Source: Bradyrhizobium sp. WSM1417 (GTDB lineage: Bacteria > Pseudomonadota > Alphaproteobacteria > Rhizobiales > Xanthobacteraceae). Taken from it: DNA of 64,000 nucleotides. This document shows, piece by piece, positions 40,267 to 59,769 of the stretch. Each line of letters starts with the position of its first letter. Within the stretch, counting starts at the first letter, position 1. The notes beneath the pieces are model-generated. The model did no database searches. It saw only the letters and a list, made by a program, of their open reading frames with translations, and was not told where the DNA came from. Position numbers and translations under genes: made by a program. The stretch lies in contig NZ_KI911783.1 of the NCBI RefSeq assembly GCF_000515415.1, positions 3,152,392-3,216,391 of the forward strand. Direction: 5' to 3'.

Positions 40267-40290
40267 AAAGGCGGCCCAAGGGCCGCCTTT
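40267..40290 (+). terminator. Rho-independent terminator of degP
   Basis: AAAGGCGGCCC and GGGCCGCCTTT form a perfect 11-bp stem with an AA loop, 27 bp after the degP stop codon. The stem's A/T ends give a short T-run on either strand. Confidence 0.85.
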
Positions 40291-40867: not shown

Positions 40868-40873
40868 CGGAGG

Positions 40874-41191
40874 TCAGCGCGACCGTTTGGAGGATTTGCG
40901 CTTCGACCTTTTCTTCGAACTCTTCTTCGAAGTCTTCTTGGATGTTTTCCGAGATGTCTTCTTTGAGGTCTTCTTGGACGTCTTCCGCTTTGCGGCTTTC
41001 TTCGGGACCTTCTTGCCCTTCTTGCGCGCTTTCGACAGGCCGATCGCGATTGCCTGCTTGCGGCTCTTCACGCGTCCGCCTCGACCGCCCGGTCCGCTTT
41101 TGGCGGTACCCTTCTTGTAGCGCTTCATCTCACTTTCGACATCGCTGCCGGAGCTGCGCGAGTAGCGGCGCTTCTTTGCCTTGCGTGCCAT
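40874..41191 (-). CDS. Lys-rich DUF6496-type protein with KTSKK repeats
   Basis: The 105-residue product is extremely basic. The first 55 residues carry the DUF6496 block (EMKRYKKGTAKSG, VKSRKQAIAIGLSKARKKG). The last 45 are near-perfect K-T/S-S-K-K repeats resembling eukaryotic H1 tails and AlgP-like proteins. DNA or RNA binding is likely from charge alone. The upstream GGAAC-N16-TGTT site suggests stress induction. It is convergent with the secreted protein gene, with 6 bp between stops. Confidence 0.75.
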   Translation of the reverse strand: MARKAKKRRYSRSSGSDVESEMKRYKKGTAKSGPGGRGGRVKSRKQAIAIGLSKARKKGKKVPKKAAKRKTSKKTSKKTSRKTSKKTSKKSSKKRSKRKSSKRSR

Positions 41192-41215
41192 GCATGTTCT
41201 CCCTTGGCCTGGGAA

Positions 41216-41240
41216 AACAATCCGAGACAGGCATGGTTCC
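41216..41240 (-). promoter_or_regulatory. EcfG-like promoter motif (GGAAC-N16-TGTT)
   Basis: On the minus strand GGAAC (41240-41236), 16 bases, then TGTT (41219-41216), 24 bp before the Lys-rich protein start. Confidence 0.55.
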
Positions 41241-41277
41241 GAAAGCGCGCATGCACGTCCCGGATACGCGGCTTAGT

Positions 41278-41490
41278 CTAGAACGAATCCGCCAGCTCGA
41301 TCTCGGCTTCCAGCACCTGAATGCGCCGCGCTGCCTCGCTGGAGGACAGATCCCGCGCATATTGCGCGGGTTGATACGCCTCTTCGCTCAGCCGTTTCAG
41401 CCGGAGGCCCTGCGCCCGCGTCATCTGCTCGGTGAGGAAAGTCTTGGCGGTGAGGAAAGTCTTGGCGTCGTATTTACGCTGAACCTGCAT
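41278..41490 (-). CDS. DUF3072-like small protein
   Basis: The 70-residue product resembles DUF3072: MTRAQGLRLKRLSEEAYQP and LSSSEAARRIQVLEAEIEL. Near the N-terminus an 18-bp in-frame duplication gives AKTFLTAKTFLT. The start at 41490 is preceded by AGAAGGGAG. It is divergent from the small gene at 41552, with a LexA-type box between them. Confidence 0.6.
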   Translation of the reverse strand: MQVQRKYDAKTFLTAKTFLTEQMTRAQGLRLKRLSEEAYQPAQYARDLSSSEAARRIQVLEAEIELADSF

Positions 41491-41527
41491 GTCGCTTCTC
41501 CCTTCTGAAATTGTGACTTGACTATAT

Positions 41528-41542
41528 GTTCTTATTTTGTTC
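41528..41542. promoter_or_regulatory. Candidate LexA box (GTTC-N7-GTTC)
   Basis: GTTC at 41528-41531, seven bases, GTTC at 41539-41542 is the alphaproteobacterial LexA consensus. It lies in an AT-rich divergent promoter, 10 bp from the start at 41552 and 38 bp from the start at 41490. Confidence 0.45.
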
Positions 41543-41551
41543 TAACAAGTC

Positions 41552-41827
41552 ATGGACAACAGAATTAATGAAATTCGACGTAAAATCAGCGCCTTGAGGC
41601 TGGAAATGGCCGATATCGAGGTGTCCGTCCGCGAACTCGTCGACCGCGAGCACGATTGCACAGAGAAGGCGCTGGCGCAGATGGATCTGCGCCGGAAAAT
41701 CAATCTGCTGATCGGCGAATGGAAAGCTGCGGGTGGCGGCGATGTCCTGCCGAATGTCCGCGACAGGATGCGTCTTCGCTCAGCGAAGACATCAGGTAGT
41801 CCTCTGCGCGTGATCGCGCGCCCCTGA
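41552..41827 (+). CDS. Small coiled-coil hypothetical protein
   Basis: The 91-residue product starts MDNRINEIRRKISALRLEMA with a heptad-like helix to about residue 55 (LVDREHDCTEKALAQMDLRR), then a short basic tail. No known domain was recognised. The LexA-type box overlaps its promoter. It is followed by another small helical protein after 16 bp. Confidence 0.5.
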   Translation: MDNRINEIRRKISALRLEMADIEVSVRELVDREHDCTEKALAQMDLRRKINLLIGEWKAAGGGDVLPNVRDRMRLRSAKTSGSPLRVIARP

Positions 41828-41843
41828 GAGCTGGGAGCGCACG

Positions 41844-42053
41844 GTGGAGGAAGACCCGGATGCATACCGGATTCTAAAGCTGCGCGCCGAGATTCTCGAA
41901 CTGGGCTCTGCGATCCGGCAGTTGCAACGCGAGGGGCTCGACGACGCCGCGGCCCAGCTCTTGATCGCGCGCAAGCGCGCACGACTCGATCATCTGGTGA
42001 GAGCTGATCCCACCGGCGTTCATCCTGACATCCTGGGCAGCCATCGTAGCTGA
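41844..42053 (+). CDS. Small helical hypothetical protein
   Basis: This 69-residue product starts with GTG (GGGAGC about nine bases upstream). It has a helical core ILKLRAEILELGSAIRQLQR and a basic middle (IARKRARLDHL). It resembles its neighbour in layout and may be co-transcribed with it. No function can be given. Confidence 0.45.
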   Translation: MEEDPDAYRILKLRAEILELGSAIRQLQREGLDDAAAQLLIARKRARLDHLVRADPTGVHPDILGSHRS

Positions 42054-42107
42054 AGCGTGCGCGCAACGCGACCCGAGAAAAAGTTCGTTCGAACACCATA
42101 AGCAAAA

Positions 42108-42129
42108 AGGCCCCGCGATCGCGGGGCCT
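42108..42129. terminator. Bidirectional terminator
   Basis: AGGCCCCGCGA/TCGCGGGGCCT is a perfect 22-base palindrome between convergent genes. A-run AAAAA precedes it, giving a T-run for the minus-strand gene at 42152. Confidence 0.8.
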
Positions 42130-42151
42130 CTATGAGTTGGACGAACAAAAC

Positions 42152-42400
42152 CTACTTGGTGTTGCTCATGCCGCTCTTGTTGTTCGTCATGGTGCCGCCT
42201 TGGTCGGAGCCGGGGCCGGAGCCGCCCTGACCGGAGGGATCAGCACCCTTGGAGGGCTTGGTGTTGGCGCCCGTGGTGGTCTGCGACGACGACATCGAGG
42301 ATCCGTGTTTTGCCTTGTGCGACTTGGCCTGCACGGCGAACGGTGCGGCGGCGAGGCCGGTGGCCAACATCACGGCAAGAGCGAGCTTTGTGGTCTTCAT
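42152..42400 (-). CDS. Small secreted Gly/Ser-rich protein
   Basis: The 82-residue product has a signal peptide (LALAVMLATGLAAAPFAVQA) and a low-complexity, probably unfolded mature part rich in Gly, Ser, Thr and Asn (DPSGQGGSGPGSDQGG). It resembles the protein at 51183 in plan. The ATG at 42400 follows GGGAGTT. An upstream GGAAC-N16-AGTT suggests stress control. Confidence 0.6.
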   Translation of the reverse strand: MKTTKLALAVMLATGLAAAPFAVQAKSHKAKHGSSMSSSQTTTGANTKPSKGADPSGQGGSGPGSDQGGTMTNNKSGMSNTK

Positions 42401-42438
42401 GTGCGGGAACTCCCTGAGTTGAATTGACGCAGGCAGCC

Positions 42439-42463
42439 AACTGCCATTCGTCGCAGGAGTTCC
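42439..42463 (-). promoter_or_regulatory. EcfG-like promoter motif (GGAAC-N16-AGTT)
   Basis: GGAAC (42463-42459), 16 bases, AGTT (42442-42439) on the minus strand, 38 bp before the secreted protein start. Confidence 0.5.
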
Positions 42464-42496
42464 GAACAAAGGAAGTTCCGGTAAAGGACGCATCCT

Positions 42497-42754
42497 TCAA
42501 GATTGCTTGTCCTCTGCGAGGATGAATACGACGCCGGTCAATGTCGCGCCGATCGCGAACGTCGTCACGAATGTGAGAGCGAAAACGACTACGGCCTGGC
42601 TTCCGCCGTGACTTAGCAAATTGGCGACGCCTGGATTGGACAGCACGAGCACGAGGCTGAAAGCGAGCCCGAGGGCTGCGCCCATCATGGCGTGCGTCAT
42701 CAGCTTGATGAGCCCGCTGGGAGAGATCAGGTCCGACGACTTCTTCGCGCGCAT
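42497..42754 (-). CDS. Small two-helix membrane protein
   Basis: The 85-residue product has two transmembrane segments (AMMGAALGLAFSLVLVLS and VVVFALTFVTTFAIGATLTG) joined by a short loop. No domain was recognised. The exact GGAAC-N16-CGTT motif 25 bp upstream makes it one of the best general-stress candidates in the window. Confidence 0.6.
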   Translation of the reverse strand: MRAKKSSDLISPSGLIKLMTHAMMGAALGLAFSLVLVLSNPGVANLLSHGGSQAVVVFALTFVTTFAIGATLTGVVFILAEDKQS

Positions 42755-42779
42755 GGAACTCTATCCCAATCTCGCATGC

Positions 42780-42804
42780 AACGCCTGCGTCACGCGCCGG
42801 TTCC
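42780..42804 (-). promoter_or_regulatory. EcfG-like promoter motif (GGAAC-N16-CGTT)
   Basis: GGAAC (42804-42800), 16 bases, CGTT (42783-42780) on the minus strand, a full consensus match, before the two-helix membrane protein gene. Confidence 0.65.
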
Positions 42805-42892
42805 ACCCGCATGAAGGAATTGTCATCCTGCGCTTCATCCGACGTTCATGCCGGGTGGGCAAGAATGACCACGCAACACGGGAACATTCGAT

Positions 42893-43114
42893 ATGGGTAA
42901 GGTGGTCTTTCTCTATCGCTCTCTGGCTTATCGTAACGCCGCTGCGGACATCCTCCGCAAGGCCCGCAAGCTGCCCCGCGGCGCGGAGCGAAGCGCGGCG
43001 TGCCGCTATGCCAAGGCTCTGCGCGATCTCGCCCAAACGGAAGCCTGGCTTGAAGGACGGGTCGCGCGCGAGCTGCAAACGACGCAGCCCAGGAAGAGTG
43101 CGGCCTCCGGTTAA
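42893..43114 (+). CDS. Small hypothetical protein
   Basis: This 73-residue basic helical product contains AADILRKARKLPRGAERSA and KALRDLAQTEAWLEGRVARE. The A-W-L-x-G end resembles the small protein at 52083 (ANEQDWLDGEV). It overlaps the convergent HWE kinase stop by 4 bp. The ribosome site is weak, so the call is tentative. Confidence 0.45.
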   Translation: MGKVVFLYRSLAYRNAAADILRKARKLPRGAERSAACRYAKALRDLAQTEAWLEGRVARELQTTQPRKSAASG

Positions 43115-44601
43115 CCGGACGCGCGCTGCAATTCGGCGGAGCTGGCGGCTTCGAAGTTGCCGGGCGCGGTCGTCGCGGCAGTCTTGCGGACCAACGGCAC
43201 CTCGAGCCGGCACAACAGACCCTCGGCGCGCCAATCGAAACGCGCCTGCCCGCCGAGCTGGGACTCGACGCTCGCAAGCAGGCTCCGCGTACCAAACCCG
43301 CGGGATTTCGGCGTCATGACGAGCGGGCCGCCGGACTCCTCCCAAGTCAGCGTGAGCAGCTCGTCCTCGACCTGCCAGCCGATCGCGAGCCGTCCCGTCC
43401 GCGTCGAGAGCGCGCCATACTTCGCCGAGTTGGTGAAAAGCTCATGCAGCGCCAGCGCCAGCGTCTGGGCGGTTGCCGGCAGCAACTGAACTTCGGATCC
43501 CGCCAATTTGATCTGGCCGCCGAGGGAATAGGGCGCAAGCTCCTCGTCGATCAGCTTCGAGAGTTCGGCGCCCTGCCAGCTCGATAGCGACAGGATCGTG
43601 TGCACGCGCGCCAGTGCATTGATGCGCCCCTCGACGGCGCTGACATAGGCTTTCACCTCGTCGGCGCGGGTGAGGCGCACGATCGATTGCGCCAGCGCCA
43701 GCGCATTCTTGGCGCGATGATCGACTTCCCGCGCCAGGAGAGTCTGCCGTTCCTCGGCGCGCTTGCGTTCGGTGATGTCCACCGTCACGCCGCTGACGCG
43801 CATGACCCGACCGCTATCGTCAACCGTGGCGGCGGCCGTGCCGACACACCAGCGCACATCGCCGTCGGGCCGCACGATGCGGAACTCCGTTTCATAGGAG
43901 CGTGTGCCCTTGTTGAATTCGGCGATCGCCTTGCGCAACTGATCGACGTCATCCGGATGCAACAGCGCCTGAACGTTGGCCGGATTCACCTCGAAGCTGT
44001 CCGGGCCAACACCAAAGATGCGGTATTGCCCCTCGTCCCACATCCAGTCGCCGGTGACCCAGTCCCAGTCCCACGAACCCATCTTGCCGGCGGCGATCGC
44101 CATGCTGCGCCGCTCTTCGCTCTCGCGGAGCTTTGCGGTGGAATTCTCCAGCTCGGCCGTGCGTGCACGCACGCGGTCCTCGAGATCCTGGTTCAGCCGC
44201 TCGAGTTCGCGCGTCTTGCGATAGAGTTCTGCAAACACCTTGACCTTGGCGCGCAGCACCTCCGGCACGACCGGCACGGGGACGTAGTCGACGGCGCCCA
44301 TCTCGTAGCCGCGCAGGCGGTCGATGTCGCTGACTTGAATGGCCGAGATGAAGATCATCGCGGTCTTCTGGAAGCGCGGGTGCTCGCGGATCATCGCGGC
44401 GAGCTCGAAGCCGTCGAGCTCGGGCATGCAGACGTCGACCAGGATCACCGCGATCTCGGTCTTGAGCAGCACCTCCAGACCCTCCCGACCGGACGAGGCG
44501 ATCACGAGGTTCTGGCCGAGATCCTTCAGGATCACCTCATAGGCGAGCAGCTTGGCCGGCTGGTCGTCGACGAGGAGGATGTTGACCTTTTCGTGGTCCA
44601 T
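43111..44601 (-). CDS. Response regulator-PAS-HWE histidine kinase
   Basis: This 496-residue soluble protein has an N-terminal receiver domain with phospho-acceptor D56 (VILVDVCMPELDGF), a coiled linker (about 125-160), a PAS domain (about 165-280) and an HWE kinase core. The core has H295 (LAREVDHRAKNALALAQSIV) and the N-box HELFTNSAKYGAL. HWE kinases in alphaproteobacteria often feed PhyR and the EcfG stress response. It starts 13 bp after the giant hybrid kinase, so its receiver may be a phosphotransfer partner. Confidence 0.87.
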   Translation of the reverse strand: MDHEKVNILLVDDQPAKLLAYEVILKDLGQNLVIASSGREGLEVLLKTEIAVILVDVCMPELDGFELAAMIREHPRFQKTAMIFISAIQVSDIDRLRGYEMGAVDYVPVPVVPEVLRAKVKVFAELYRKTRELERLNQDLEDRVRARTAELENSTAKLRESEERRSMAIAAGKMGSWDWDWVTGDWMWDEGQYRIFGVGPDSFEVNPANVQALLHPDDVDQLRKAIAEFNKGTRSYETEFRIVRPDGDVRWCVGTAAATVDDSGRVMRVSGVTVDITERKRAEERQTLLAREVDHRAKNALALAQSIVRLTRADEVKAYVSAVEGRINALARVHTILSLSSWQGAELSKLIDEELAPYSLGGQIKLAGSEVQLLPATAQTLALALHELFTNSAKYGALSTRTGRLAIGWQVEDELLTLTWEESGGPLVMTPKSRGFGTRSLLASVESQLGGQARFDWRAEGLLCRLEVPLVRKTAATTAPGNFEAASSAELQRASG

Positions 44602-44614
44602 ACGGGCATCCAAC

Positions 44615-50902
<6,288 letters not shown>

Positions 50903-51131
50903 ACTGATTCCCCCGCAGGCGTCGGCCGATTCCCAGGCGAGACGCGGTTTATCAAAATAGAGCGTCAGCCAAATTCGAAATCAAGCGCCAACGTCACGGC
51001 GCCCGGAAGTGGAACCTGCTTTGCTCAGCCCGATTAACATAAGTGCCATCCCTCGGAATGGTTCCATCCGGTTCCAGTCTTTCCGGGCCGGCAGATCGGT
51101 TTGTTTTCAGCGACTTGGTCATCTGCCTTCC
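50903..51131. other. Gene-free upstream region of the giant kinase
   Basis: On the minus strand there is a GGAAC-N17-CTTA (about 51063-51039) that fits the stress promoter poorly, and an AT-rich stretch TTGATAAACC near 50960. No confident promoter was found. The region separates divergent transcripts. Confidence 0.4.
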
Positions 51132-51156
51132 GGAACGGAGCGCCGGGCCTGCCGTT
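51132..51156 (+). promoter_or_regulatory. EcfG-like promoter motif (GGAAC-N16-CGTT)
   Basis: GGAAC at 51132-51136, 16 bases, CGTT at 51153-51156, a full consensus match 26 bp before the secreted protein start at 51183. Confidence 0.68.
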
Positions 51157-51182
51157 AGCCCGCAGATGCAGGGAGAGCGCAC

Positions 51183-51464
51183 ATGAAAGCAGGATTTGTC
51201 GTCATCGGGACCGTGATGTTGTTGGCCGGATCGGCGTTCGCACAGGGCGGCGCGCCCAGCGGCCGCGGGGCCGTCACCGGCGATCCCGCCGCAAGCTCTG
51301 CCACCCCACGCGCGGACACACCAACCACGGGTACGTCCACCCGGTCTAATCCCAGCGGTAGCGGCACGTCGAGTTCGGGCGGCAAGGATGACAATGGGGA
51401 TGCCGGCCGCGACAAAATGCTGGAGGGCAGCCGCAGCGCGCAGCCGGAGAGCCGGCAAAAGTAA
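51183..51464 (+). CDS. Small secreted Gly/Ser/Thr-rich protein
   Basis: The 93-residue product has a signal peptide (VVIGTVMLLAGSAFAQ) and a low-complexity mature region (GRGAVTGDPAASSATPR, SGSGTSSSGGKDDNGD) without a fold I recognise. GGGAGAGCGC precedes the ATG. It matches the protein at 42152 in plan and has its own exact stress-type promoter. Confidence 0.65.
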   Translation: MKAGFVVIGTVMLLAGSAFAQGGAPSGRGAVTGDPAASSATPRADTPTTGTSTRSNPSGSGTSSSGGKDDNGDAGRDKMLEGSRSAQPESRQK

Positions 51465-51479
51465 GGGTGCTTGGCAGCC

Positions 51480-51998
51480 CTACTTGTCCGCCATGGTGCG
51501 CTCGGCGTCCTTGACCTGCGAGCGCAACATCGGGAGCTGCTCGCGCGCGAACGCTGCAAGCGCGGCATTGTCGGGTGCCTTCAGATAACGCTCGAGCAGG
51601 TCGATCACCGATTCATATTCGGGAATCTGCGCGGCATAGAAGCTTCTGACGAAAGTCGGTCCGTCCGAAGTTTCGGGTTCGACCATGCTCGCGCTCGCCG
51701 GGGTCGTCTTGGCGACGCGCGGTTCGGTGCCGATCGCCTCTTGAATTTGCTTCAGAGCCTTGTCGCGCCGGGCCGCTTCCTCGGCGCGCAGGGCGGCGAG
51801 GTTCTTGACCTCGGCATTGCCCTTCAGGTCGGTGCTCTCCAGCAGGCCCTGCTGGAAGCGGCTGAAGGTGTAGAGGTCGCTGATGGTCTCGGTTGCGGTC
51901 GGCGTGCGGCCGGCGGGCCTTCGCTCCCCGGTGCTGTCGGCAAGCGCTGCCGTGCTGATAAATGCCAAAACTATCGCGAGAAAAATCCGCATGGACAT
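51480..51998 (-). CDS. Exported DUF4142-like helical protein
   Basis: The 172-residue product has a signal peptide (MRIFLAIVLAFISTAALA) and a helical region with LYTFSRFQQGLLESTDLKGN and SFYAAQIPEYESVIDLLERY. This resembles the DUF4142/DUF305 type of four-helix exported proteins, but without the paired histidines, so the family call is weak. ATG 51998 or 51992 could be the start; neither has a strong ribosome site. It is convergent with the gene at 51183. Confidence 0.5.
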   Translation of the reverse strand: MSMRIFLAIVLAFISTAALADSTGERRPAGRTPTATETISDLYTFSRFQQGLLESTDLKGNAEVKNLAALRAEEAARRDKALKQIQEAIGTEPRVAKTTPASASMVEPETSDGPTFVRSFYAAQIPEYESVIDLLERYLKAPDNAALAAFAREQLPMLRSQVKDAERTMADK

Positions 51999-52082
51999 CC
52001 AATGGCGGATGGCGGTCGAAAGTTCCGCAGATGTTACGATCCGGTAAGGGCGGTTGCGACGCGACGGTTCCGTCCCCAATTC

Positions 52083-52283
52083 ATGTTGATGAAACAGTCC
52101 GAGATCTTCAGGGATAACGCCGACAACTGCCTCCAGCTCGCTGAGCGCGCTGAAGGACAGCCGTCACATAATCGTTTTCTGCGCATGGCGAATGCGTGGA
52201 CGGCACTCGCCAACGAGCAGGATTGGCTCGACGGCGAGGTGCCGCCCGTTCCAGCCCGCATCCGTCAAAAGCAGGATGCGTAA
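52083..52283 (+). CDS. Small hypothetical protein (Bradyrhizobium-type, ends WLDGE)
   Basis: The 66-residue product (MLMKQSEIFRDNADNCLQLA, then RFLRMANAWTALANEQDWLD) follows a pattern I recall as common in Bradyrhizobium small proteins: a Tyr/Phe-x-x-Ala lead, a Cys, then M-A-x-x-W-x-x-L-A. ATG 52083 or 52089 may be used. No function is known. Confidence 0.55.
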   Translation: MLMKQSEIFRDNADNCLQLAERAEGQPSHNRFLRMANAWTALANEQDWLDGEVPPVPARIRQKQDA

Positions 52284-52387
52284 CCCTCTCGTTTCGTGGA
52301 TCTGCGTGTGAGACTGCTCACGGACGGCAAGCAGGATCATTCGTAACAGTCGGTCGCGTTGATTTCCTATTCCGGGAGGTTTTTGCA

Positions 52388-52519
52388 ATGGCTCCACGTC
52401 TGGCTCTTCTTTCGCTCATTTTTGCCTTTGGCGTGTCGGTCGCGTTCGCCACAGTGACGACGGTGCGGCAGGTGCATCATGAAAATGCATCGGCCCCGGT
52501 GCACTCAGCGCACAGTTAG
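52388..52519 (+). CDS. Very small exported or membrane protein
   Basis: A 43-codon frame begins at 52388 after GGGAGG. It encodes one hydrophobic N-terminal segment (LALLSLIFAFGVSVAFATV), possibly a signal peptide, and a short His-rich end. No known family was recognised. Confidence 0.45.
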   Translation: MAPRLALLSLIFAFGVSVAFATVTTVRQVHHENASAPVHSAHS

Positions 52520-52538
52520 CGGTCTGATCTCGCGGGTC

Positions 52539-52563
52539 GGAACCTTCGACGCTTCGGCGCGTA
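52539..52563 (+). promoter_or_regulatory. EcfG-like promoter motif (GGAAC-N16-CGTA)
   Basis: GGAAC at 52539-52543, 16 bases, CGTA at 52560-52563, one base off consensus, 34 bp before the gene at 52598. Confidence 0.45.
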
Positions 52564-52597
52564 AGCGCTTCGACACAGCAAAGAGGCGAGAGCTATC

Positions 52598-52804
52598 ATG
52601 GCCCATTCCGACCAAGGCATTATCAGAGATCAGCGCGGTGAACAGCAGCCGCGGGACAAGCAGCGTGCGCAGACCGTGCACAAGTCGGAGCCAACGGGCT
52701 CGCCCTCTCGTGAGGCCACGCGCGATCCCAAGCTGAATGACAACAGCAAGACGCCCGGCTCCGGTATGGCGCCGGATGATTCCGGCGACGCGCCGAGCGG
52801 CTAA
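52598..52804 (+). CDS. Small hydrophilic, probably disordered protein
   Basis: The 68-residue product (MAHSDQGIIRDQRGEQQPRD, then PSREATRDPKLNDNSKTPGS) is highly charged with no hydrophobic core. This composition is typical of small stress-associated hydrophilins. GAGAGCTATC precedes the ATG. Confidence 0.55.
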   Translation: MAHSDQGIIRDQRGEQQPRDKQRAQTVHKSEPTGSPSREATRDPKLNDNSKTPGSGMAPDDSGDAPSG

Positions 52805-52857
52805 TTCATCAGGAACGAATTTGCACGCCTAATTCCATCAGGAACGAATTCGCACGC
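52802..52857. repeat. 27/28-bp tandem direct repeat
   Basis: TAATTCATCAGGAACGAATT plus TGCACGC at 52802-52828 is repeated with one insertion and one substitution at 52830-52857. It begins at the stop codon of the gene at 52598. Each unit carries a GGAAC, but no downstream GTT at the right spacing. Confidence 0.8.
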
Positions 52858-52869
52858 AAAGAGTCGAGG

Positions 52870-52946
52870 GATTGCTTCCGGTTGTCATGCCCCCGGTGAT
52901 CCGGAAGCAATCTCCAAGGACGGCCCCGGCACCCGTGCCGGGGCCG
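52870..52946 (+). terminator. Inverted repeat and strong rho-independent terminator
   Basis: GATTGCTTCCGG/CCGGAAGCAATC arms lie at 52870-52881 and 52901-52912. They are followed by a perfect 12-bp stem CGGCCCCGGCAC/GTGCCGGGGCCG at 52921-52946 and TTTTC. The second structure is a classical terminator for the plus strand. Confidence 0.82.
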
Positions 52947-52968
52947 TTTTCTTGAGCATCAGGCTGGA

Positions 52969-53217
52969 CTAATCCTCGGCGTCGCGCTGCGGATGCGGTT
53001 GCGTATGGCCGTCCGGGCCGCGCCCGAAAACCCCGAACCTGCTCGATTTGACATTCGCCCCTGCATCGACCGCTGCGGTGGCGAGTCCGAGCTTCAGGAG
53101 CTCGCGCACGGCTGCGGCTCGCGTCGGCATGCGATGTTTGAACCGGAAGTCGTCAACCGCGGCCAGTTCTTCCGGTGACAGCATGACCTGGAGCCGCTCG
53201 GCGCGAAGGTCGTTCAT
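52969..53217 (-). CDS. Ribbon-helix-helix type small protein
   Basis: The 82-residue product starts MNDLRAERLQVMLSPEELAA, giving a short beta strand then two helices (VDDFRFKHRMPTRAAAVREL) as in ribbon-helix-helix DNA-binding proteins or antitoxins. A Gly/His/Pro-rich tail follows. No partner toxin gene is adjacent. The ATG at 53217 is preceded by GGATG. Confidence 0.65.
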   Translation of the reverse strand: MNDLRAERLQVMLSPEELAAVDDFRFKHRMPTRAAAVRELLKLGLATAAVDAGANVKSSRFGVFGRGPDGHTQPHPQRDAED

Positions 53218-53393
53218 GATCAATCATCCAAAATGAGCAAGTTGAGTAGTTTACTCAACGAACTCATTCGGCCGCGGTTCCACAAGATGCGGCTACGGCG
53301 CCAAGTGAGTTAAAAAGATCAACAACTTCAATAAGTTATATGATGCAAAGGTCCTTGGGCAGGTGTATACTCCCGGCAAATGGGAGAGACGTC

Positions 53394-53561
53394 ATGACGA
53401 ACGAAGTCAGATTGCCCCGCAACCATGTCGAAGAGAGCGACGCACCCAAGCCGGTGCGCCCGAGCCACCAGAAGGTGATCGAGCAGGTCGAGCGCTGGGC
53501 CAACAGCCCGGGCCTTCAACCGCCGAGATTGCAGCCGTCGACGCAGGCCAAAGCGGGCTAG
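53394..53561 (+). CDS. Very small hydrophilic hypothetical protein
   Basis: A 55-codon frame starts at 53394 after GGGAGAGACG. The product (MTNEVRLPRNHVEESDAPKP) is Pro-rich and probably unstructured. Its TAG stop overlaps the convergent DUF3147 gene's TAG through the palindromic CTAG at 53558-53561. Confidence 0.5.
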   Translation: MTNEVRLPRNHVEESDAPKPVRPSHQKVIEQVERWANSPGLQPPRLQPSTQAKAG

Positions 53562-54046
53562 CGCTTCGCCAGGGGAGAGCCCTTTGCTGATAGCGAAGGA
53601 GCTGATCGGTGCGGTTTGCGGGAGACGATGCGCAGCTTGCGCCTGAGCCACCAAGCCAACACCGAAATGACGGCCCCGGCTATCAACGCGGCAGCGAAGG
53701 CGCCCGGAACGCTCGCAGCCACGGTGAAATGAAAGACGGCGGCGAATGCCAGGAGACCGATGCTTCCCCAGGCGGCGCCAGCCGCGTCGAGCGCGGCGGC
53801 CTCTTGCCCGCGGCGCGTGCCGCTGAGGCCGGCCTTCTCCTTGGTGCGGCGTTCATGGCTTTCGACCAGCGTGGCGCTCGCGCAGAAGATGGCGGGAAGC
53901 GCAAGGAAAAGTCCGCCCACGGACACACCGAAGCGCGCTCCCAGAACCCCCGCGAGCACGGTCGCCAAGCCACCGAGCAGGAAACGAATGCCGTATTCGT
54001 ACCAGCGTGTCTGCTTCAGCGCGGAGAGCGACAGCTTGACCGGCAT
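53558..54046 (-). CDS. DUF3147-like membrane protein 1
   Basis: The 162-residue product has about four transmembrane segments. The pattern RWYEYGIRFLLGGLATVLAG, then GGLFLALPAIFCASATLVES, matches DUF3147, with a charged cytoplasmic insert (HERRTKEKAGLSGTRRGQEA). A basic C-terminal tail follows. Its ATG overlaps the stop of the next DUF3147-like gene. The role is unknown. Confidence 0.65.
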   Translation of the reverse strand: MPVKLSLSALKQTRWYEYGIRFLLGGLATVLAGVLGARFGVSVGGLFLALPAIFCASATLVESHERRTKEKAGLSGTRRGQEAAALDAAGAAWGSIGLLAFAAVFHFTVAASVPGAFAAALIAGAVISVLAWWLRRKLRIVSRKPHRSAPSLSAKGSPLAKR

Positions 54047-54393
54047 CAGGCCGCACCTCCGAAGCCGGCGAGCAGGCCGAAGGCGACCACCAGCCACACG
54101 ATGACAGCCAGGACCGTCGCGGGCAGCGCGGATACACGGTATCTGATCAGCAGATGGCACACCACGACGCTGTAGCAGCCGAGCGCGACCGCGCCATAGA
54201 TCATCGTCCAGCTTTCGGCCGCGGCATATTGTGGGCCGTGCTGGACAACGGCGATGCCGAGCGTCGCGAGTGCGACTGACGGTGCTGCGCCGAGCAACCC
54301 CGCAAAACTTTTGGGCTTCAGCATATCGCCCAAGATCGCAAAAGCGGAGACGATGATGCCACCGGCGATGAAGCGCACGATATATTCGGTCAC
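54046..54393 (-). CDS. DUF3147-like membrane protein 2
   Basis: The 115-residue product has about four membrane segments: YIVRFIAGGIIVSAFAILGD, FAGLLGAAPSVALATLGIAV and later helices. It is a shorter relative of its downstream neighbour. GTG at 54393 is preferred because it overlaps the PAP2 stop codon as GTGA. An ATG at 54444 would overlap the PAP2 gene by 55 bases. Confidence 0.6.
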   Translation of the reverse strand: MTEYIVRFIAGGIIVSAFAILGDMLKPKSFAGLLGAAPSVALATLGIAVVQHGPQYAAAESWTMIYGAVALGCYSVVVCHLLIRYRVSALPATVLAVIVWLVVAFGLLAGFGGAA

Positions 54394-54974
54394 GGCTTTT
54401 CCCGCCGATTGACTTGCTTGCGGAACGATTGCGTCAATGTCCATGGCCGCAAGAGTCTCTCTACGGCAGCGCCAAGCGCAAAGCCTGCAACCACGTCGCT
54501 TGCCCAATGCGCGAGCACCGCGATCCGTGTCAGCGACAGCGCGATCGCGGCCGTGCGCAGCAATCGGCGCGGCGTCTTCGGCAGCAAGCCCGCCGCCGAG
54601 GCAAGTGCGCCCATATGGACCGCGTGACCGGAGGGGAAAGCGTCGCGCGCCTGTCCTGAGATGGGTACTCCATTTCGGTGTCCGCGTATGGTCAGCCGGT
54701 CTGGCCTGGTCTGATCGAATACGGATTTCAGGACATGCGGCAGGACGGCCGTCGCCAACGACACGGCCAGAATGTGATTTGCCACGGGCCGCTGTTGCGG
54801 CTGCCGAATGTGAGTATAGAGCCACCCTATTGCGGCCAGCGCGAGCAGCACGTGCTCGTCGGCGGCCCAGGTCAATGTCTGCGCGGTATGCTCGATGCCT
54901 GAATTGGTGTGATCAGCGATCTTATCCGCGATCGCGGTGTCGATCCGGCTGGGTTTGACCTCTACTAATGCCAT
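54390..54974 (-). CDS. PAP2-family membrane phosphatase
   Basis: The 194-residue product has the three PAP2 phosphatase motifs: KSVFDQTRPDR, PSGHAVHMG, and TRIAVLAHWASDVVAG with the catalytic His. About five transmembrane helices surround them. Such enzymes dephosphorylate lipid phosphates or undecaprenyl pyrophosphate. It is followed by two DUF3147-like genes with overlapping stops and starts, so the three proteins may work together in the membrane. Confidence 0.82.
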   Translation of the reverse strand: MALVEVKPSRIDTAIADKIADHTNSGIEHTAQTLTWAADEHVLLALAAIGWLYTHIRQPQQRPVANHILAVSLATAVLPHVLKSVFDQTRPDRLTIRGHRNGVPISGQARDAFPSGHAVHMGALASAAGLLPKTPRRLLRTAAIALSLTRIAVLAHWASDVVAGFALGAAVERLLRPWTLTQSFRKQVNRREKP

Positions 54975-55073
54975 CGGTCTGCAAGCGTGATGTCCTTCAT
55001 GACAGTTTTGTAAAGCCCGCAGACAAAGAAGGTTCCTGAGTTCGACCTCGGGGCAGCCGCCTGCAGGGCCGGG

Positions 55074-56090
55074 CTACGGCTGTCCCGATCCACCAGCGGA
55101 CCCATACACCTGGCCGGTCGCATAGCTCGCGTCGGCTGCGGCAAGCTGCACGTAAATGGAGGCCAGTTCGGCGGGCTGGCCGGGACGGCCGAGCGGCGTC
55201 ATGCCGCCGAATTTTTCGAGCTTTTCCATCGTGGCGCCGCCGGAGACCTGGAGCGGCGTCCAGATCGGTCCCGGGGCGACGCCATTGACGCGAATGCCCT
55301 TCGAGGCGAGCTGCTTCGCCAGCGACTTCACGTAGTTCATCGTCGCCGCCTTGGTCTGCGCATAGTCGTAGAGATCGGGTGAGGGGTCGTAAGCCTGCTC
55401 GGACGTCGTGCCGATGATGCACGAGCCTGGCTTCAAATGCGGCAGTGCCGCCTTGATGATCCAGAACGGCGCATAGATGTTGGTCTTCATCGTCGCATCG
55501 AAGTCTTCCGAGGAGACGTCGAGAATGGACGCACGTGTCTGCTGCCGCGCCGCGTTGCAGACGAGGACGTCGAGTCCACCGAGACCTTGGACGGCCTGCT
55601 CGACCAGCTTCTTGCAGAAAGCCTCATCCTTGAGGTCGCCTGGAATCGCGAGCCCGGTACGCCCTTCCTTCTTGATCAGCGCGATGACGTCCTGCGCATC
55701 CGGCTCTTCCGCCGCTAGATAGTTGATGGCGACGTCGGCGCCTTCGCGTGCGTAAGCTATCGCAGCGGCGCGGCCCATACCGGAATCCCCGCCGGTGATC
55801 AGCGCCTTGCGCCCGGCGAGCCGGCCGGAGCCCTTGTAGCTGGTCTCGCCGTGATCCGGGGGCGGCTCCATCTTGCCGGCGAGGCCAGGCCAGGGCTGCG
55901 ACTGTTTTTTGAACGGCGGCTTTGGAAAACGGGCGACTGGATCGACCAGTTTGTGCTCGGCCATTTTCTGCTCGGCCATGGACGTGTCTCCTTTCGCTGT
56001 GGAAGAGGCCAGCGAAACGGCAGCAAGCGTTGCGCTCGCCGCTTGGACGACGTGCCGGCGGGAAAGTGAAGTCTTGTCAGGTTTCGTCAT
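55074..56090 (-). CDS. SDR-family oxidoreductase (YghA-like) with an N-terminal Tat signal
   Basis: A classical short-chain dehydrogenase: GGDSGMGRAAAIAYAREGAD (cofactor site), NYLAAEEPD, a catalytic Tyr/Lys in YDYAQTKAATMNYV, and NGVAPGPIWTPL. The core resembles E. coli YghA. From ATG 56090 the protein is 338 residues and begins with a twin-arginine signal, SLSRRHVVQAASATLAAVSL. An internal ATG at 55979 has a near-perfect AAAGGAGA seven bases upstream and would give a cytoplasmic form of 301 residues. Confidence 0.78.
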   Translation of the reverse strand: MTKPDKTSLSRRHVVQAASATLAAVSLASSTAKGDTSMAEQKMAEHKLVDPVARFPKPPFKKQSQPWPGLAGKMEPPPDHGETSYKGSGRLAGRKALITGGDSGMGRAAAIAYAREGADVAINYLAAEEPDAQDVIALIKKEGRTGLAIPGDLKDEAFCKKLVEQAVQGLGGLDVLVCNAARQQTRASILDVSSEDFDATMKTNIYAPFWIIKAALPHLKPGSCIIGTTSEQAYDPSPDLYDYAQTKAATMNYVKSLAKQLASKGIRVNGVAPGPIWTPLQVSGGATMEKLEKFGGMTPLGRPGQPAELASIYVQLAAADASYATGQVYGSAGGSGQP

Positions 56091-56150
56091 GAGAGGCACC
56101 GCGCTTTTGCGAATGCCAATGCGCGGCGCGAGGCATCGTTGCTAGACGAA

Positions 56151-56175
56151 AGGACGCCGGAAGGTCCGGCGTCCT
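56151..56175 (-). terminator. Terminator hairpin after the DUF4142 gene
   Basis: AGGACGCCGGA/TCCGGCGTCCT is a perfect 11-bp stem with an AGG loop. On the minus strand it follows the stop at 56201 and is trailed by TTTCG. Confidence 0.75.
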
Positions 56176-56200
56176 CAAACAAAGTTTACTTGAACCATGT

Positions 56201-56752
56201 TTACTTGGTCTGGCCGACGCTCGGCGCCTTGCCGAGCTCCTTGGCCATGTCGAGATGGTGCTTGAGCGCCGGCAGCGTCTTGCCGGCCCAATCCTTCAGG
56301 TCGGAATTGTCGCCGCCCTTGGCGTAACGCTCGAACAGCGAGACCGCGTCCTCATGGGCACTGACCTGGTACGAATTGTAATCCGAGCTGAAGTCCTTGC
56401 CGTTCGCGCTCTTGAGCTTGTCGAGCTTGCTCTGATGCGAGCTGTCGAGTGCTGTCGGCAGGGTCGCCTGCACCTTGCCGCCGCTGACCAGGCCCTTCAG
56501 TTCGCTGCTGGTCTTGGTGTGGTCGGTCACCATCTGTTGCGCAAAAGTCTTCTCCTGCGCGTTGCCTTTCTGCTCGGCAAGTTTGCTCGATTCGATCTCG
56601 AACATGTCGCTGATGGCGACTTCCTTGACGAAGTCGGCGGTGGCAGGCGCGACGCCGAGCGCCGAGTTGACGCCGGTCTTCTCGCCGAGCGACTGGGCGA
56701 GCGCGGGCCCTGCGAGCAGCACGCAGGCAGCTGCGATGATTGTACGTTTCAT
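56201..56752 (-). CDS. Exported DUF4142 protein
   Basis: The 183-residue product has a signal peptide (MKRTIIAAACVLLAGPALAQ) and a DUF4142 domain with TADFVKEVAISDMFEIESSK, AQQMVTDHTKTSSELK and a C-terminal LKHHLDMAKEL. It is a paralogue of the protein at 8251. Here the promoter-like element is of the EcfG type rather than the local ECF type. Confidence 0.85.
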   Translation of the reverse strand: MKRTIIAAACVLLAGPALAQSLGEKTGVNSALGVAPATADFVKEVAISDMFEIESSKLAEQKGNAQEKTFAQQMVTDHTKTSSELKGLVSGGKVQATLPTALDSSHQSKLDKLKSANGKDFSSDYNSYQVSAHEDAVSLFERYAKGGDNSDLKDWAGKTLPALKHHLDMAKELGKAPSVGQTK

Positions 56753-56806
56753 GGTCCGATCCCTTCGAATGGGCGCAGCCTCTCGCCGCGCGACGTTGCG
56801 CCCACC

Positions 56807-56831
56807 AACACGCTGCAGCGGCCGGAGTTCC
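56807..56831 (-). promoter_or_regulatory. EcfG-like promoter motif (GGAAC-N16-TGTT)
   Basis: GGAAC (56831-56827), 16 bases, TGTT (56810-56807) on the minus strand, 54 bp before the DUF4142 start. Confidence 0.55.
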
Positions 56832-56837
56832 TAACGG

Positions 56838-57065
56838 CTAATCCGTCGGTCTCCGCCCGCTCCGTGGGTTGATGGGATCCGTCGGCTTGCGCCGAAGCCG
56901 TTCGGGCAGAAACGGCTCGGTCGGCGTCGCGGTGGCCTCGGCACGCACGTCTGCATGGCGTTGTGCTCGCTCGTGCGGCGTCCGGTTATCATTGATCTGC
57001 CGCTTCACGTCGAGGCCATCCACAGGATCGTTGACGCCGTGCTGGATATCGCGGAAATCGCTCAT
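56838..57065 (-). CDS. Small hydrophilic hypothetical protein
   Basis: The 75-residue product (MSDFRDIQHGVNDPVDGLDV, then RTPHERAQRHADVRAEATAT) is charged, with Pro/Arg-rich ends and no hydrophobic core. It is probably unstructured. It lies 8 bp after the thiamine-diphosphate enzyme gene, so it probably shares that gene's stress-type promoter. Confidence 0.6.
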   Translation of the reverse strand: MSDFRDIQHGVNDPVDGLDVKRQINDNRTPHERAQRHADVRAEATATPTEPFLPERLRRKPTDPINPRSGRRPTD

Positions 57066-57073
57066 GCTTTACC

Positions 57074-58861
57074 TCATTCATTTCCAGGCAGGATCTTTTC
57101 CAGCACCTGCCGCGCCGCCCCCTTGATCATTCCGCTCTCGTTGGGATCGCCCTTCAGCAGCGCAAGAGAGAAGTTCTTGGCCTGCTGCAAGGTGATATGC
57201 GGCGGCAGCGGCGGCACTTCGGGGTCGGTCTTCACCTCCAGCACCACGGGCATCTGGCTCGCCAGCGCCTGCTCCCAGGCCGAGCCCAGCATCTGCGGAC
57301 TGTCGACATAGATGCCGGAGAGGCCGATCAGCTCGGCAAACCGCGAATAGGAAACGTTTGGGATGCGCTGCGATGCCTCAAATTTCGGATCGCCGTTGAT
57401 GATACGCTGCTCCCAAGTCACCTGGTTGAGATCTTCGTTGTTGAAGACGCAGACGATGAAGCGCGGATCCGTCCAGTCGCGCCAATATTTCGCGGCGGTG
57501 ATCAGCTCGGCCATATTGTTCATCTGCATCGCGCCGTCGCCAACGAGGGCAATCACCGGGCGATCGGAATGGGCGTATTTGGCGGCGAGCGCATAGGGCA
57601 CTGCGGCACCCATCGAGGCGAGGCCGCCTGAGAGCGAGGCCGTCATGCCGCGGCGCATCTTGAGGTCGCGCGCGAACCAGTTGGCGCAGGAGCCGGAATC
57701 GCTGGTGATGATAGCGCGGTCGGGCAGGCGCGGCGACAGCTCCCAGGTGACGAGCTGCGGATTGACCGGTGCTGCGGGCTGATGTGCCCGATCATCGAGC
57801 GTCTTCCACCACTTTGCGACGCCCTCTTGGATTCCCTGGCGCCAGGCGCCGTCGGTCTTGGGTGCGAGCCGCGGCAGCAGGGCGCGCAGCGTCTCGGCGG
57901 CATCGCCGACCAGGCCGACCTCCATGGGAAAGCGGATCGACATCATGCTGGCGTCGAGATCGATCTGCACGCCGCGCGCCGCGCCTTCCTTCGGCAGGAA
58001 CTCGGAATACGGAAACCCGGAGCCGACCATCAGCAGCGTGTCGCATTCCATCATCATGTTGTAGCTGGGCTCGGTGCCGAGTAAGCCGATCGAGCCGGTG
58101 ACCCAGGGGAGATCGTCCGGGAGCGCCGCCTTCCCGAGCAGTGCCTTGGCGCAGCCGGCGGACAAGCGGTCGGCGACCGCGATCACCTCCTCGGTGGCGT
58201 GGAGCGCGCCGGCGCCGACGAGCATCGCGACCTTCTTGCCGGCGTTGAGCACCTCGGCGGCACGGTCGAGGTCAGCGTCACGAGGCTTGATGCTTGGCGC
58301 ACTATAGCCGATGCCGGAGTGCAGGGTGCCGTGAGCGCGCGGCGGATCCTCGTAGGGCTCCTCCTGGATATCGTTGGGCAGGATGATCACCGTTGGCGTC
58401 CGCCGAGCCAACGCGATCCGAATCGACCGATCGATCAGATGCCGGATCTGAGCCGGCGAGGATGCTTGCATGACATAGGCGCCAGCCACATCCTTGAACA
58501 TCGAGACGAGATCGAGTTCCTGCTGATAATGTCCGCCCAGCGCATTGCGTGCCTGCTGACCGACGATCGCGAGCACGGGCTGGTGATCCAGCAGGGCATC
58601 GTAGAGCCCGGTGATCAGATGCGAGGCGCCGGGGCCTGAAGTTGCGATACAGACCCCGAGTTGGCCAGAGAACTTCGCATAGGCGGTCGCCATGAAGGCG
58701 GCCATCTCCTCATGCCGCGCCTGGACAAAGCCGATCTTGCCCTCAGCGCGCTGGAGGGCGCCGAATACGCCGTTGATGCCATCGCCGGGATAGCCAAAGA
58801 GGTGGCGCACGCCCCATTGATGCAGACGTTGAACGATGAAGTCGGAGACGGTCTGGGACAT
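57074..58861 (-). CDS. Thiamine-diphosphate enzyme, pyruvate oxidase/acetolactate synthase-like
   Basis: This 595-residue protein has the three TPP-enzyme domains. The catalytic Glu is E51 (FVQARHEEMAAFMATAYAKF). The middle domain binds FAD or nucleotide (GKKVAMLVGAGALHATEEVI). TPP/Mg binds at VGDGAMQMNNMAELITA with the late Asn. The substrate could be pyruvate (PoxB-like, giving acetate) or another 2-oxo acid. PoxB is stress-induced in other bacteria. The gene is followed by a small hydrophilin and has a GGAAC-N16-GGTT motif upstream. Confidence 0.82.
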   Translation of the reverse strand: MSQTVSDFIVQRLHQWGVRHLFGYPGDGINGVFGALQRAEGKIGFVQARHEEMAAFMATAYAKFSGQLGVCIATSGPGASHLITGLYDALLDHQPVLAIVGQQARNALGGHYQQELDLVSMFKDVAGAYVMQASSPAQIRHLIDRSIRIALARRTPTVIILPNDIQEEPYEDPPRAHGTLHSGIGYSAPSIKPRDADLDRAAEVLNAGKKVAMLVGAGALHATEEVIAVADRLSAGCAKALLGKAALPDDLPWVTGSIGLLGTEPSYNMMMECDTLLMVGSGFPYSEFLPKEGAARGVQIDLDASMMSIRFPMEVGLVGDAAETLRALLPRLAPKTDGAWRQGIQEGVAKWWKTLDDRAHQPAAPVNPQLVTWELSPRLPDRAIITSDSGSCANWFARDLKMRRGMTASLSGGLASMGAAVPYALAAKYAHSDRPVIALVGDGAMQMNNMAELITAAKYWRDWTDPRFIVCVFNNEDLNQVTWEQRIINGDPKFEASQRIPNVSYSRFAELIGLSGIYVDSPQMLGSAWEQALASQMPVVLEVKTDPEVPPLPPHITLQQAKNFSLALLKGDPNESGMIKGAARQVLEKILPGNE

Positions 58862-58915
58862 CGAGGGCGACCCTTGGTTTTCCGGTATTTGGATTCCGGG
58901 ATTTGAACTTGAGAG

Positions 58916-58940
58916 AACCGCCCGTTTCCGGCGATGTTCC
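58916..58940 (-). promoter_or_regulatory. EcfG-like promoter motif (GGAAC-N16-GGTT), minus strand
   Basis: GGAAC (58940-58936), 16 bases, GGTT (58919-58916), 54 bp before the TPP-enzyme start. It is divergent from the plus-strand motif at 58962. Confidence 0.5.
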
Positions 58941-58961
58941 TCAAGTCTGACGGAACATGCC

Positions 58962-58987
58962 GGAACGATCGCGCACCTCTTCGGGTT
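58962..58987 (+). promoter_or_regulatory. EcfG-like promoter motif (GGAAC-N17-GGTT), plus strand
   Basis: GGAAC at 58962-58966, 17 bases, GGTT at 58984-58987, 30 bp before the PRC-barrel start. Confidence 0.5.
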
Positions 58988-59017
58988 GTCTCCACACTGG
59001 CTGAGTGGAGAATTGAG

Positions 59018-59392
59018 ATGTTGAATCAGGGTGAACTGGACCAAAACGAGATGGGTCGGTTGATCGGCAGCGATAAGGTCGAGGGAACATCGGTCTACGG
59101 CGCCGATCGCAACAAGATCGGCTCGATCGAACGCGTGATGATCGACAAGGTCAGCGGCAAGGTGTCCTACGCCGTGCTCGGCTTCGGCGGATTTCTGGGC
59201 CTCGGCAACGACCATTATCCGCTGCCGTGGCAGTCGCTGAAATACGACACGGAGCTTGGCGGCTATGTCACCGGCATCACCACGAAGGAGCTGGAAGGCG
59301 CGCCGAAATACGGCGAGCGGAGTGATTGGAACTGGGGTGATGACGCCGCGGTGCGCGGCATCAACTCCTATTACGGCGTCCCCTTCGCGTAA
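59018..59392 (+). CDS. PRC-barrel domain protein
   Basis: The 124-residue product has one PRC-barrel domain (LIGSDKVEGTSVYGADRNKI, VSGKVSYAVLGFGGFLGLGN, PLPWQSLKYD) and an acidic C-terminal tail (GERSDWNWGDDAAVRG). PRC-barrel proteins of this soluble type are frequent in rhizobial stress regulons; their molecular role is unclear. GTGGAG precedes the ATG. A micro-gene follows after 24 bp. Confidence 0.82.
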   Translation: MLNQGELDQNEMGRLIGSDKVEGTSVYGADRNKIGSIERVMIDKVSGKVSYAVLGFGGFLGLGNDHYPLPWQSLKYDTELGGYVTGITTKELEGAPKYGERSDWNWGDDAAVRGINSYYGVPFA

Positions 59393-59416
59393 GCGTTTCC
59401 ACCGAAAGGAAGCTCG

Positions 59417-59575
59417 ATGAGCAAGGAACGGCCTAATGACGATCCTCGGCAGCAGAGCGACTGGGGTTCGCACAAGCAGACGGACAAGCCCTGGAAGGGC
59501 ACTCCGGAAAAGGAGCAGGGATCGGACGAGGTGAAGCCCGATCTCGAGAAATGGCACGCGACGAAGACGCACTGA
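59417..59575 (+). CDS. 52-residue hydrophilic protein
   Basis: ATG 59417 has AAAGGAAG upstream and opens a 52-codon frame (MSKERPNDDPRQQSDWGSHK, ending HATKTH). The product is charged and lacks hydrophobic residues. It is probably co-transcribed with the PRC-barrel gene and ends before a terminator hairpin. Confidence 0.55.
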   Translation: MSKERPNDDPRQQSDWGSHKQTDKPWKGTPEKEQGSDEVKPDLEKWHATKTH

Positions 59576-59603
59576 CTCCACGTGCGTTTCAATGAGACAT
59601 CGA

Positions 59604-59637
59604 GGCGCGGCACCCAGCGTGCCGCGCCCGCTTTTTG
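59604..59637 (+). terminator. Rho-independent terminator
   Basis: GGCGCGGCAC/GTGCCGCGCC is a perfect 10-bp stem with a 5-base loop at 59604-59628, followed by CGCTTTTTG. Confidence 0.85.
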
Positions 59638-59675
59638 GGCAGGCGTTCACGAACGCGATGGTGCTCGCAATAAGC

Positions 59676-59700
59676 GGAACCATGATCACGAGGCGCAGTT
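59676..59700 (+). promoter_or_regulatory. EcfG-like promoter motif (GGAAC-N16-AGTT)
   Basis: GGAAC at 59676-59680, 16 bases, AGTT at 59697-59700, 69 bp before the efflux adaptor start. Confidence 0.45.
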
Positions 59701-59769
59701 GGGCTCGCGTCGCGTGAGCCGGCTTCGGCTGCTCTGCCGCCAGTTTGATTCCCGAGAAAGGTGTTCACC

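Follow-up and report, generated by a model that had tools for sequence, protein, structure and literature searches.

Results

A cluster of predicted EcfG-type promoters

The stretch of DNA analysed here (the window, 64,000 nt) covers positions 3,152,392-3,216,391 of the single-contig, 8.05-Mb genome of Bradyrhizobium sp. WSM1417. Its segment 40874-59700, called the island below, carries small stress-type genes behind motifs resembling the promoters of EcfG, the extracytoplasmic function (ECF) sigma factor of the alphaproteobacterial general stress response. Two histidine kinase genes on the same strand occupy the middle of the island (42.8-51 kb), one for a hybrid kinase with a long series of HAMP repeats (the poly-HAMP kinase) and, downstream of it, one for an HWE-type kinase. 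A first-pass annotation had described the motif-bearing genes as encoding small secreted, membrane, Lys-rich or hydrophilic proteins, a DUF4142 protein, a thiamine pyrophosphate (TPP) enzyme, a PRC-barrel protein and an efflux pair; these descriptions hold. What it had left unmentioned is the central kinase pair, which has an EcfG-type promoter in most aligned relatives.

Both strands were scanned with a regular expression for GGAAC-N16/17-NGTT. All nine motifs previously listed for the island, and the one listed at 21363, are present (minus-strand sites had been given by their lower coordinate); missing from that list was a strict site, GGAAC-N16-CGTT at 53281-53257 on the minus strand, 39 nt ahead of the gene at 53217-52969. 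The island thus holds ten predicted promoter sites, nine with NGTT and one with CGTA as the -10 box, every one with GGAAC as the -35 box. The spacer is 16 nt in nine and 17 nt in one. As the annotation had it, the motifs lie close before starts and face the right way, ending 24-60 nt from the start codon at the island sites and 38 nt from it at 21363.

For the left half of the island, orthologues were taken from HWE-kinase loci (the best 80 of 577). A locus was usable if the match began at query residue 15 or earlier and 200 nt of upstream DNA were available, and the motif was sought within those 200 nt; usable were, for example, 61/80 loci for the poly-HAMP kinase, 32/40 for gene 51183 and 44/46 for gene 42152. 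For the right half, up to 30 loci were returned per search from 60 genomes of the genus, the window's own copy included, and loci were excluded if the match began beyond residue 12, if the flank was short or if the upstream string duplicated another. This kept 28/30 loci for DUF4142, 18/20 for the TPP enzyme, 22/33 for the PRC-barrel gene, 29/30 for HlyD, 14/18 for a short-chain dehydrogenase/reductase (SDR) and 18/18 for gene 56838. In an alignment test requiring at least 62% identity, the column identity of the eight element bases was ranked over 175 upstream offsets. The predicted promoters and their genes are as follows ("elements" and "spacer" are column identities).

40874..41191, minus strand: Lys-rich DUF6496 protein, 105 aa (PF20106, E 4.9e-27)
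41240-41216, minus strand: predicted EcfG-type promoter (TGTT) of the DUF6496 gene; motif in 50/50 usable orthologues; elements 0.99, spacer 0.58; rank 1/175
42152..42400, minus strand: small secreted protein, 82 aa (signal peptide by eye); no Pfam/NCBIfam family at the cut-offs used
42463-42439, minus strand: predicted EcfG-type promoter (AGTT) of the 42400-42152 gene; motif in 44/44 usable orthologues; rank 1/175
42497..42754, minus strand: small membrane protein (by eye), 85 aa; no Pfam/NCBIfam family at the cut-offs used
42804-42780, minus strand: predicted EcfG-type promoter (CGTT) of the 42754-42497 gene; motif in 49/50 usable orthologues, 48 with CGTT; rank 1/175
51132-51156, plus strand: predicted EcfG-type promoter (CGTT) of gene 51183; motif in 27/32 usable orthologues; rank 1/175
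51183..51464, plus strand: small secreted Ser/Gly/Thr-rich protein, 93 aa (by eye); no Pfam/NCBIfam family at the cut-offs used
52539-52563, plus strand: predicted EcfG-type promoter with a CGTA -10 box, gene 52598; CGTA in 46/46; elements 1.00; rank 1/175
52598..52804, plus strand: small hydrophilic protein, 68 aa; no Pfam/NCBIfam family at the cut-offs used
52969..53217, minus strand: 82-aa protein, ribbon-helix-helix-like by eye only; no family match
53281-53257, minus strand: predicted EcfG-type promoter (CGTT) of gene 52969; motif in 37/43 usable orthologues; rank 1/175
56201..56752, minus strand: DUF4142 protein, 183 aa, secreted by eye (PF13628, E 4.3e-44)
56831-56807, minus strand: predicted EcfG-type promoter (TGTT) of the DUF4142 gene; motif in 21/28, own included; elements 0.87; rank 1/175
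57074..58861, minus strand: TPP-requiring enzyme, 595 aa, ATG at 58861 (NF006129, 1071.6 bits against a cut-off of 724, for a query with two extra N-terminal residues)
58940-58916, minus strand: predicted EcfG-type promoter (GGTT) of the TPP enzyme gene; motif in 16/18, own included; rank 1/175
58962-58987, plus strand: predicted EcfG-type promoter (GGTT, spacer 17) of the PRC-barrel gene; motif in 22/22, own included; rank 12/174
59018..59392, plus strand: PRC-barrel protein, ATG at 59018 (PF05239)
59676-59700, plus strand: predicted EcfG-type promoter (AGTT) of the efflux pair; motif in 23/29, own included; rank 1/175
59761..60924, plus strand: HlyD/EmrA-like adaptor of the efflux pair (TIGR00998, 256.6 bits, under its cut-off of 390.8)
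60921..62540, plus strand: DHA2-family permease of the major facilitator superfamily, efflux pair (TIGR00711, 438.9 bits against a cut-off of 230.2)

Density and conservation of the motif

Over the 8,048,963 bases of the genome, GGAAC-N16/17-NGTT occurs 375 times, against 455 for the reversed control, and its CGTT form 163 times, against 178. Since the motif is no commoner than its control, a single match means little and the sequence alone proves no promoter. The island motifs might then be chance matches in GC-rich DNA, and one match, at 45192 on the plus strand, does sit within the open reading frame (ORF) of the 2095-aa kinase and was set aside as chance. What argues otherwise is, first, a tenfold local excess. 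The earlier chance estimate, about one exact and four relaxed matches per window, was near the mark: genome density predicts 1.3 CGTT and about 3.0 NGTT matches per 64 kb, where 5 and 11 are observed. Within 40874-59700 there are 10 NGTT matches (45192 included, the CGTA site extra) against 0.88 expected, a Poisson tail of 3.4e-8. By comparison, 34 stretches of 20 kb, taken from this genome at regular spacing on a 220-kb grid, hold 0-3 each (mean 0.97), against 10 in 40201-60200. Two grid slots, near 1.74 and 2.40 Mb, were left out beside chosen clusters; stretches picked near them because matches cluster there hold 5 and 6 and were tallied apart. Four stretches picked for listed match clusters hold 4, 5, 6 and 6 motifs. 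Other clusters thus exist too, and the island exceeds every one of the 40 own-genome stretches.

The second argument is conservation. At nine sites the element bases are 0.87-1.00 identical, against 0.49-0.81 for the spacer, and at all nine the motif is the best of 175 offsets; that eight bases are kept almost completely while the spacers between them drift refutes the chance explanation, to which we give practically no weight. Judged by these alignments, the ten island sites are under strong selection. The case for promoters is carried by clustering, position and conservation together. A count confined to NGTT (0/45 orthologues) had made the 52539 site look like a chance match, a view overturned by column conservation and a count that allowed for GTA: 46/46 orthologues have CGTA there and none has NGTT. 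Reversed, complemented or scrambled control motifs were found 0-2 times per gene. The misses in the right-half sets are mostly, not all, in more distant homologues.

The same comparison removed several neighbouring genes from the candidate direct targets. The motif is upstream of SDR 55074 in 0/14 relatives, of gene 53340 in 0/40 and of gene 53558 in 0/32; it precedes gene 56838 in just 3/18 relatives, the 52067 frame in just 1/42, and the DUF4142-like gene 51480 in 8/43, with none in the window. That island genes lacking a site here mostly have none in relatives either speaks for EcfG control of the ten promoters.

EcfG as the probable sigma factor

The genome encodes the EcfG system: NepR has a single match, flanked by the genes for PhyR and for an ECF sigma factor (EcfG). 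In published reports, the EcfG motif is GGAAC-N16-CGTT (PMC3892343, PMC7083833). Up to 14 distinct -10 boxes are listed for the Sphingopyxis regulon, in which promoters with TGTT, GGTT and CATT served as in vitro templates and departures from CGTT reduced transcription (PMC7083833). Among the top EcfG-regulated genes of Sphingomonas melonis are one for a PRC-barrel protein, whose box is GGTT, and one for a glycosyltransferase, which has a GTA box (PMC6599016). In Bradyrhizobium diazoefficiens, EcfG controls trehalose synthesis by OtsA (PMC8092242). As a positive control, GGAAC-N16-AGTT stands ahead of one of the two otsA-family matches in the present genome, with 85 nt between its end and the matched region. 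The first-pass proposal that EcfG reads the island motifs accords with all of this, namely the conserved sites, the PhyR/NepR/EcfG genes, the published motif and the otsA motif, and it is this predicted control that we favor.

Besides the genome-wide count, several observations weigh against it. The phyR-nepR-ecfG locus (L031) has no NGTT site; a loosened scan found a single GGAAC-N16-CATT site there, before nepR, which is only suggestive of autoregulation. Wrong-spacing control motifs, elsewhere 0-7 per gene, rise to 25/43 at gene 52969 (spacer 10-13) and to 12/61 at the poly-HAMP kinase (spacer 19-22). The PRC-barrel site ranks just 12/174 (elements 0.80), its own spacer being one base longer than that of most relatives. 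Finally, GGAAC serves other ECF sigma factors as a -35 box too.

It could be that the promoters are real and are read mainly by another ECF sigma factor sharing that box. The genome offers ten further EcfG matches at E <=0.001. The closest of these, 39% identical, is at 3,240,215, with another HWE kinase some 4 kb away at 3,245,093. This alternative seems improbable to us: the -10 boxes and 16/17-nt spacers of the island match the published EcfG form, otsA, an EcfG target in the congener B. diazoefficiens, has the same motif form here, and a PRC-barrel gene is an EcfG target elsewhere (PMC6599016). With both sides weighed, we put the probability that the ten island promoters are under EcfG control, making the island a predicted regulon cluster, at about 0.88.

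Two other sigma factors lie in or near the window. The gene at 3,240,215 is 24 kb past its end (L235, L246, L288), and together with the HWE kinase at 3,245,093 it possibly forms a second sigma/kinase unit. Within the window, an ECF-type sigma factor gene at 7446-8159 encodes a product weakly similar to EcfG, with 31% identity over 132 residues (~7614-8045).

The kinase pair

The centre of the island has the following features.

43111..44601, minus strand: REC-PAS-HWE histidine kinase (PF07536, E 8.7e-22), with the HRAKN (HRxxN) phospho-acceptor motif at residue 295
44615..50902, minus strand: poly-HAMP hybrid histidine kinase, 2095 aa, with 11 repeats at exact 92-aa steps, GAF, HisKA, HATPase and 3 REC domains
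51041..51065, minus strand: degenerate promoter position of the poly-HAMP kinase, GGAAC-N16-ACTT in the window

By eye, and with no membrane predictor run for either protein, no transmembrane region was noticed in the poly-HAMP kinase, and the HWE kinase is presumably soluble. The promoter position of the poly-HAMP kinase is 163 nt before the start in the window and 156-169 nt before it in the relatives that have NGTT. GGAAC is present in 60/62 aligned sequences; the -10 tetramer is NGTT in 40/62, NATT in 19/62 and something else in 3/62, the window's ACTT among these. Because the motif is absent upstream of the HWE kinase gene in all of the best 80 of 577 loci (0/80), this gene was not counted as a direct target; it is presumably co-transcribed with the poly-HAMP kinase gene.

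The HWE kinase is matched in 59/60 genomes of the genus, own included, and the contigs that carry it at 89-96% identity (best 80 of 577) are nearly all labelled Bradyrhizobium. At E <=1e-60 it is matched in 11/150 genomes of the order: four of Bradyrhizobium, own included, and seven others, of which four match near full length, two of them at 61% and 49% and two at 37-38% identity, and three in part. In one genome of another family (G148) a CGTT motif stands 60 nt before the homologous kinase ORF, and in one of a third family (G145) the homologous kinase has, immediately upstream, a DUF4142-like gene (36% identity) preceded by a CGTT motif.

Is the pair an input to the response whose genes surround it, or a bystander that owes its place in the island to history and whose signal goes elsewhere than to PhyR? 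Gene order favors an input. HlyD at >=71% identity occurs in 25 other genomes of the genus. In 20 of them it lies no more than 25 kb from the HWE kinase; in four the two genes are on different contigs, and in the last, G026, the kinase has no match. DUF4142 at >=85% identity is found in 18 genomes, in 16 of them within 25 kb of the HWE kinase, in one on another contig and in one 1.28 Mb off; another 18 genomes, whose matches are weaker, are outside this count, and in G043 there is a partial copy at a distance of 12 kb. The efflux pair with its motif is directly behind the HWE kinase in three genomes (G010, G044, G003) of a rearranged, more distant Bradyrhizobium group. The poly-HAMP kinase, moreover, has an EcfG-type promoter position in 59/62 aligned sequences and in the genome of another family mentioned above, and HWE/HisKA_2 kinases are known PhyR inputs in S. 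melonis (PMC5898713).

A role in the same response is challenged by three observations. The window's own kinase promoter is degenerate, its ACTT being neither NGTT nor NATT. G026, which has no HWE kinase match at 1e-100, keeps the motif-bearing DUF6496, PRC-barrel and HlyD genes together, so these genes need no kinase nearby. And at the other six of the seven HWE domains in the genome there is no motif within 1.5 kb, for which reason the idea that HWE kinases and motifs go together in general was dropped. We see the bystander as having an even chance; that the pair feeds into the same stress response in some form is possible, with somewhat less than an even chance.

Some further observations concern these kinases. 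In a more distant Bradyrhizobium group (L102, L105, L109, L291, L293) a divergent kinase lies upstream of the poly-HAMP kinase; in L102 it has PAS, HisKA, HATPase and REC domains, and a CGTT motif starts 46-50 nt before its start in 5/5 usable cases. A locus labelled Frankia sp. (L070, 90%) and one labelled as a gammaproteobacterial metagenome-assembled genome (L085, 82%) also carry the kinase. As their versions are Bradyrhizobium-like, these labels are probably wrong or the assemblies contaminated.

Other motif sites in the genome

One predicted promoter of the window lies outside the island.

21363-21387, plus strand: predicted EcfG-type promoter (CGTT), 38 nt ahead of the gene at 21426; motif in 16/26 homologues, own included

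In 13/26 homologues (own included) the motif is at a similar distance, -63 to -87. The gene encodes a 152-aa protein (window 21363-21884), and a near-identical promoter sequence occurs at ~161.2 kb of the genome. A second cluster, at 1,745,001-1,765,000 (L194), has five CGTT motifs; the genes behind them include one for a DUF883 protein and, by eye, those for a transporter, an L,D-transpeptidase-like protein and a 51-aa membrane protein, with an HWE kinase domain at 1,750,067, a few kb from the motifs. The third, at 4,705,001-4,725,000 (L195), has six motifs, all on one strand; by eye, one of them, a CGTT motif at ~4.71 Mb, precedes a secreted protein resembling the 42152 product, and another a CsbD-like protein.

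Discussion

The type of regulon proposed here is already known; the locus is new. The island is like the EcfG regulons of B. diazoefficiens, Rhizobium etli, S. melonis and Sphingopyxis granuli in promoter form, spacing and sigma system, and in having, for example, a PRC-barrel protein and small secreted proteins among its predicted targets. It is unlike these, as far as the accessible portions of their descriptions go, in gathering ten conserved promoters into 19 kb around a kinase pair. A literature search over titles and the beginnings of abstracts found nothing on the island or the kinase pair; the B. japonicum regulon of Gourion 2009 was outside its reach, and the targets may already have been published.

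By analogy with other alphaproteobacteria, stress would make HWE-type kinases drive phosphorylation of PhyR, and phosphorylated PhyR would bind NepR, freeing EcfG. The freed sigma factor would then fire the ten promoters, yielding the small stress proteins, the DUF4142 protein, the TPP enzyme, the PRC-barrel protein and the EmrAB-like efflux pair. HWE/HisKA_2 kinases with HRxxN act on PhyR in S. melonis, where phosphorylated PhyR releases EcfG from NepR (PMC5898713) and the route runs mainly through an SdrG-PhyT relay (PMC6599016). The window's HWE kinase shares the HRxxN motif, as HRAKN, with the S. melonis Paks for which such an HWE domain is described; it differs from them in its N-terminal REC domain and its fixed poly-HAMP partner, and its role toward PhyR is only predicted. 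With a hybrid kinase as neighbor, that N-terminal receiver would be the natural phosphate acceptor. Phosphate might thus pass from the poly-HAMP kinase to this REC domain, and the HWE kinase might then act on PhyR, directly or via a relay.

In B. diazoefficiens, two of eleven HRxxN kinases (HhkA and HhkE) reportedly activate the response, under salt and osmotic stress. The HWE kinase of the window may be one of the eleven Hhk proteins (HhkA to HhkK).

The poly-HAMP kinase itself resembles group III kinases. In fungi, such kinases with their 92-aa HAMP pairs operate upstream of the high-osmolarity glycerol (HOG) pathway (PMC3848655), and bacterial relatives exist in Myxococcus (PMC7643160). Like fungal Nik1 and Myxococcus AskA/AskB, the poly-HAMP kinase has 92-aa HAMP-pair repeats, HisKA, HATPase and receivers; unlike them, it has 11 repeats, GAF, three receivers and an HWE kinase neighbor in a general-stress island. 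It is tempting to speculate about a self-reinforcing module in which a Nik1-type poly-HAMP osmosensor would signal through the REC-PAS-HWE kinase to PhyR, and EcfG would in turn transcribe the pair along with the effectors. As a whole this scheme is doubtful, and less probable than an input of the pair in some form.

The general stress response is needed by B. diazoefficiens for efficient soybean infection (PMC8092242). For this response the island supplies ten well-supported candidate direct EcfG targets, among them five small proteins without a Pfam or NCBIfam family at the cut-offs used, and, in the conserved kinase pair, a candidate stress sensor. It also shows, at one promoter, that CGTA can be fixed as a variant of the -10 box (46/46). 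Should the proposed role of the pair be true, the group III kinase type of the fungal HOG pathway would serve as a sensor of the alphaproteobacterial general stress response.

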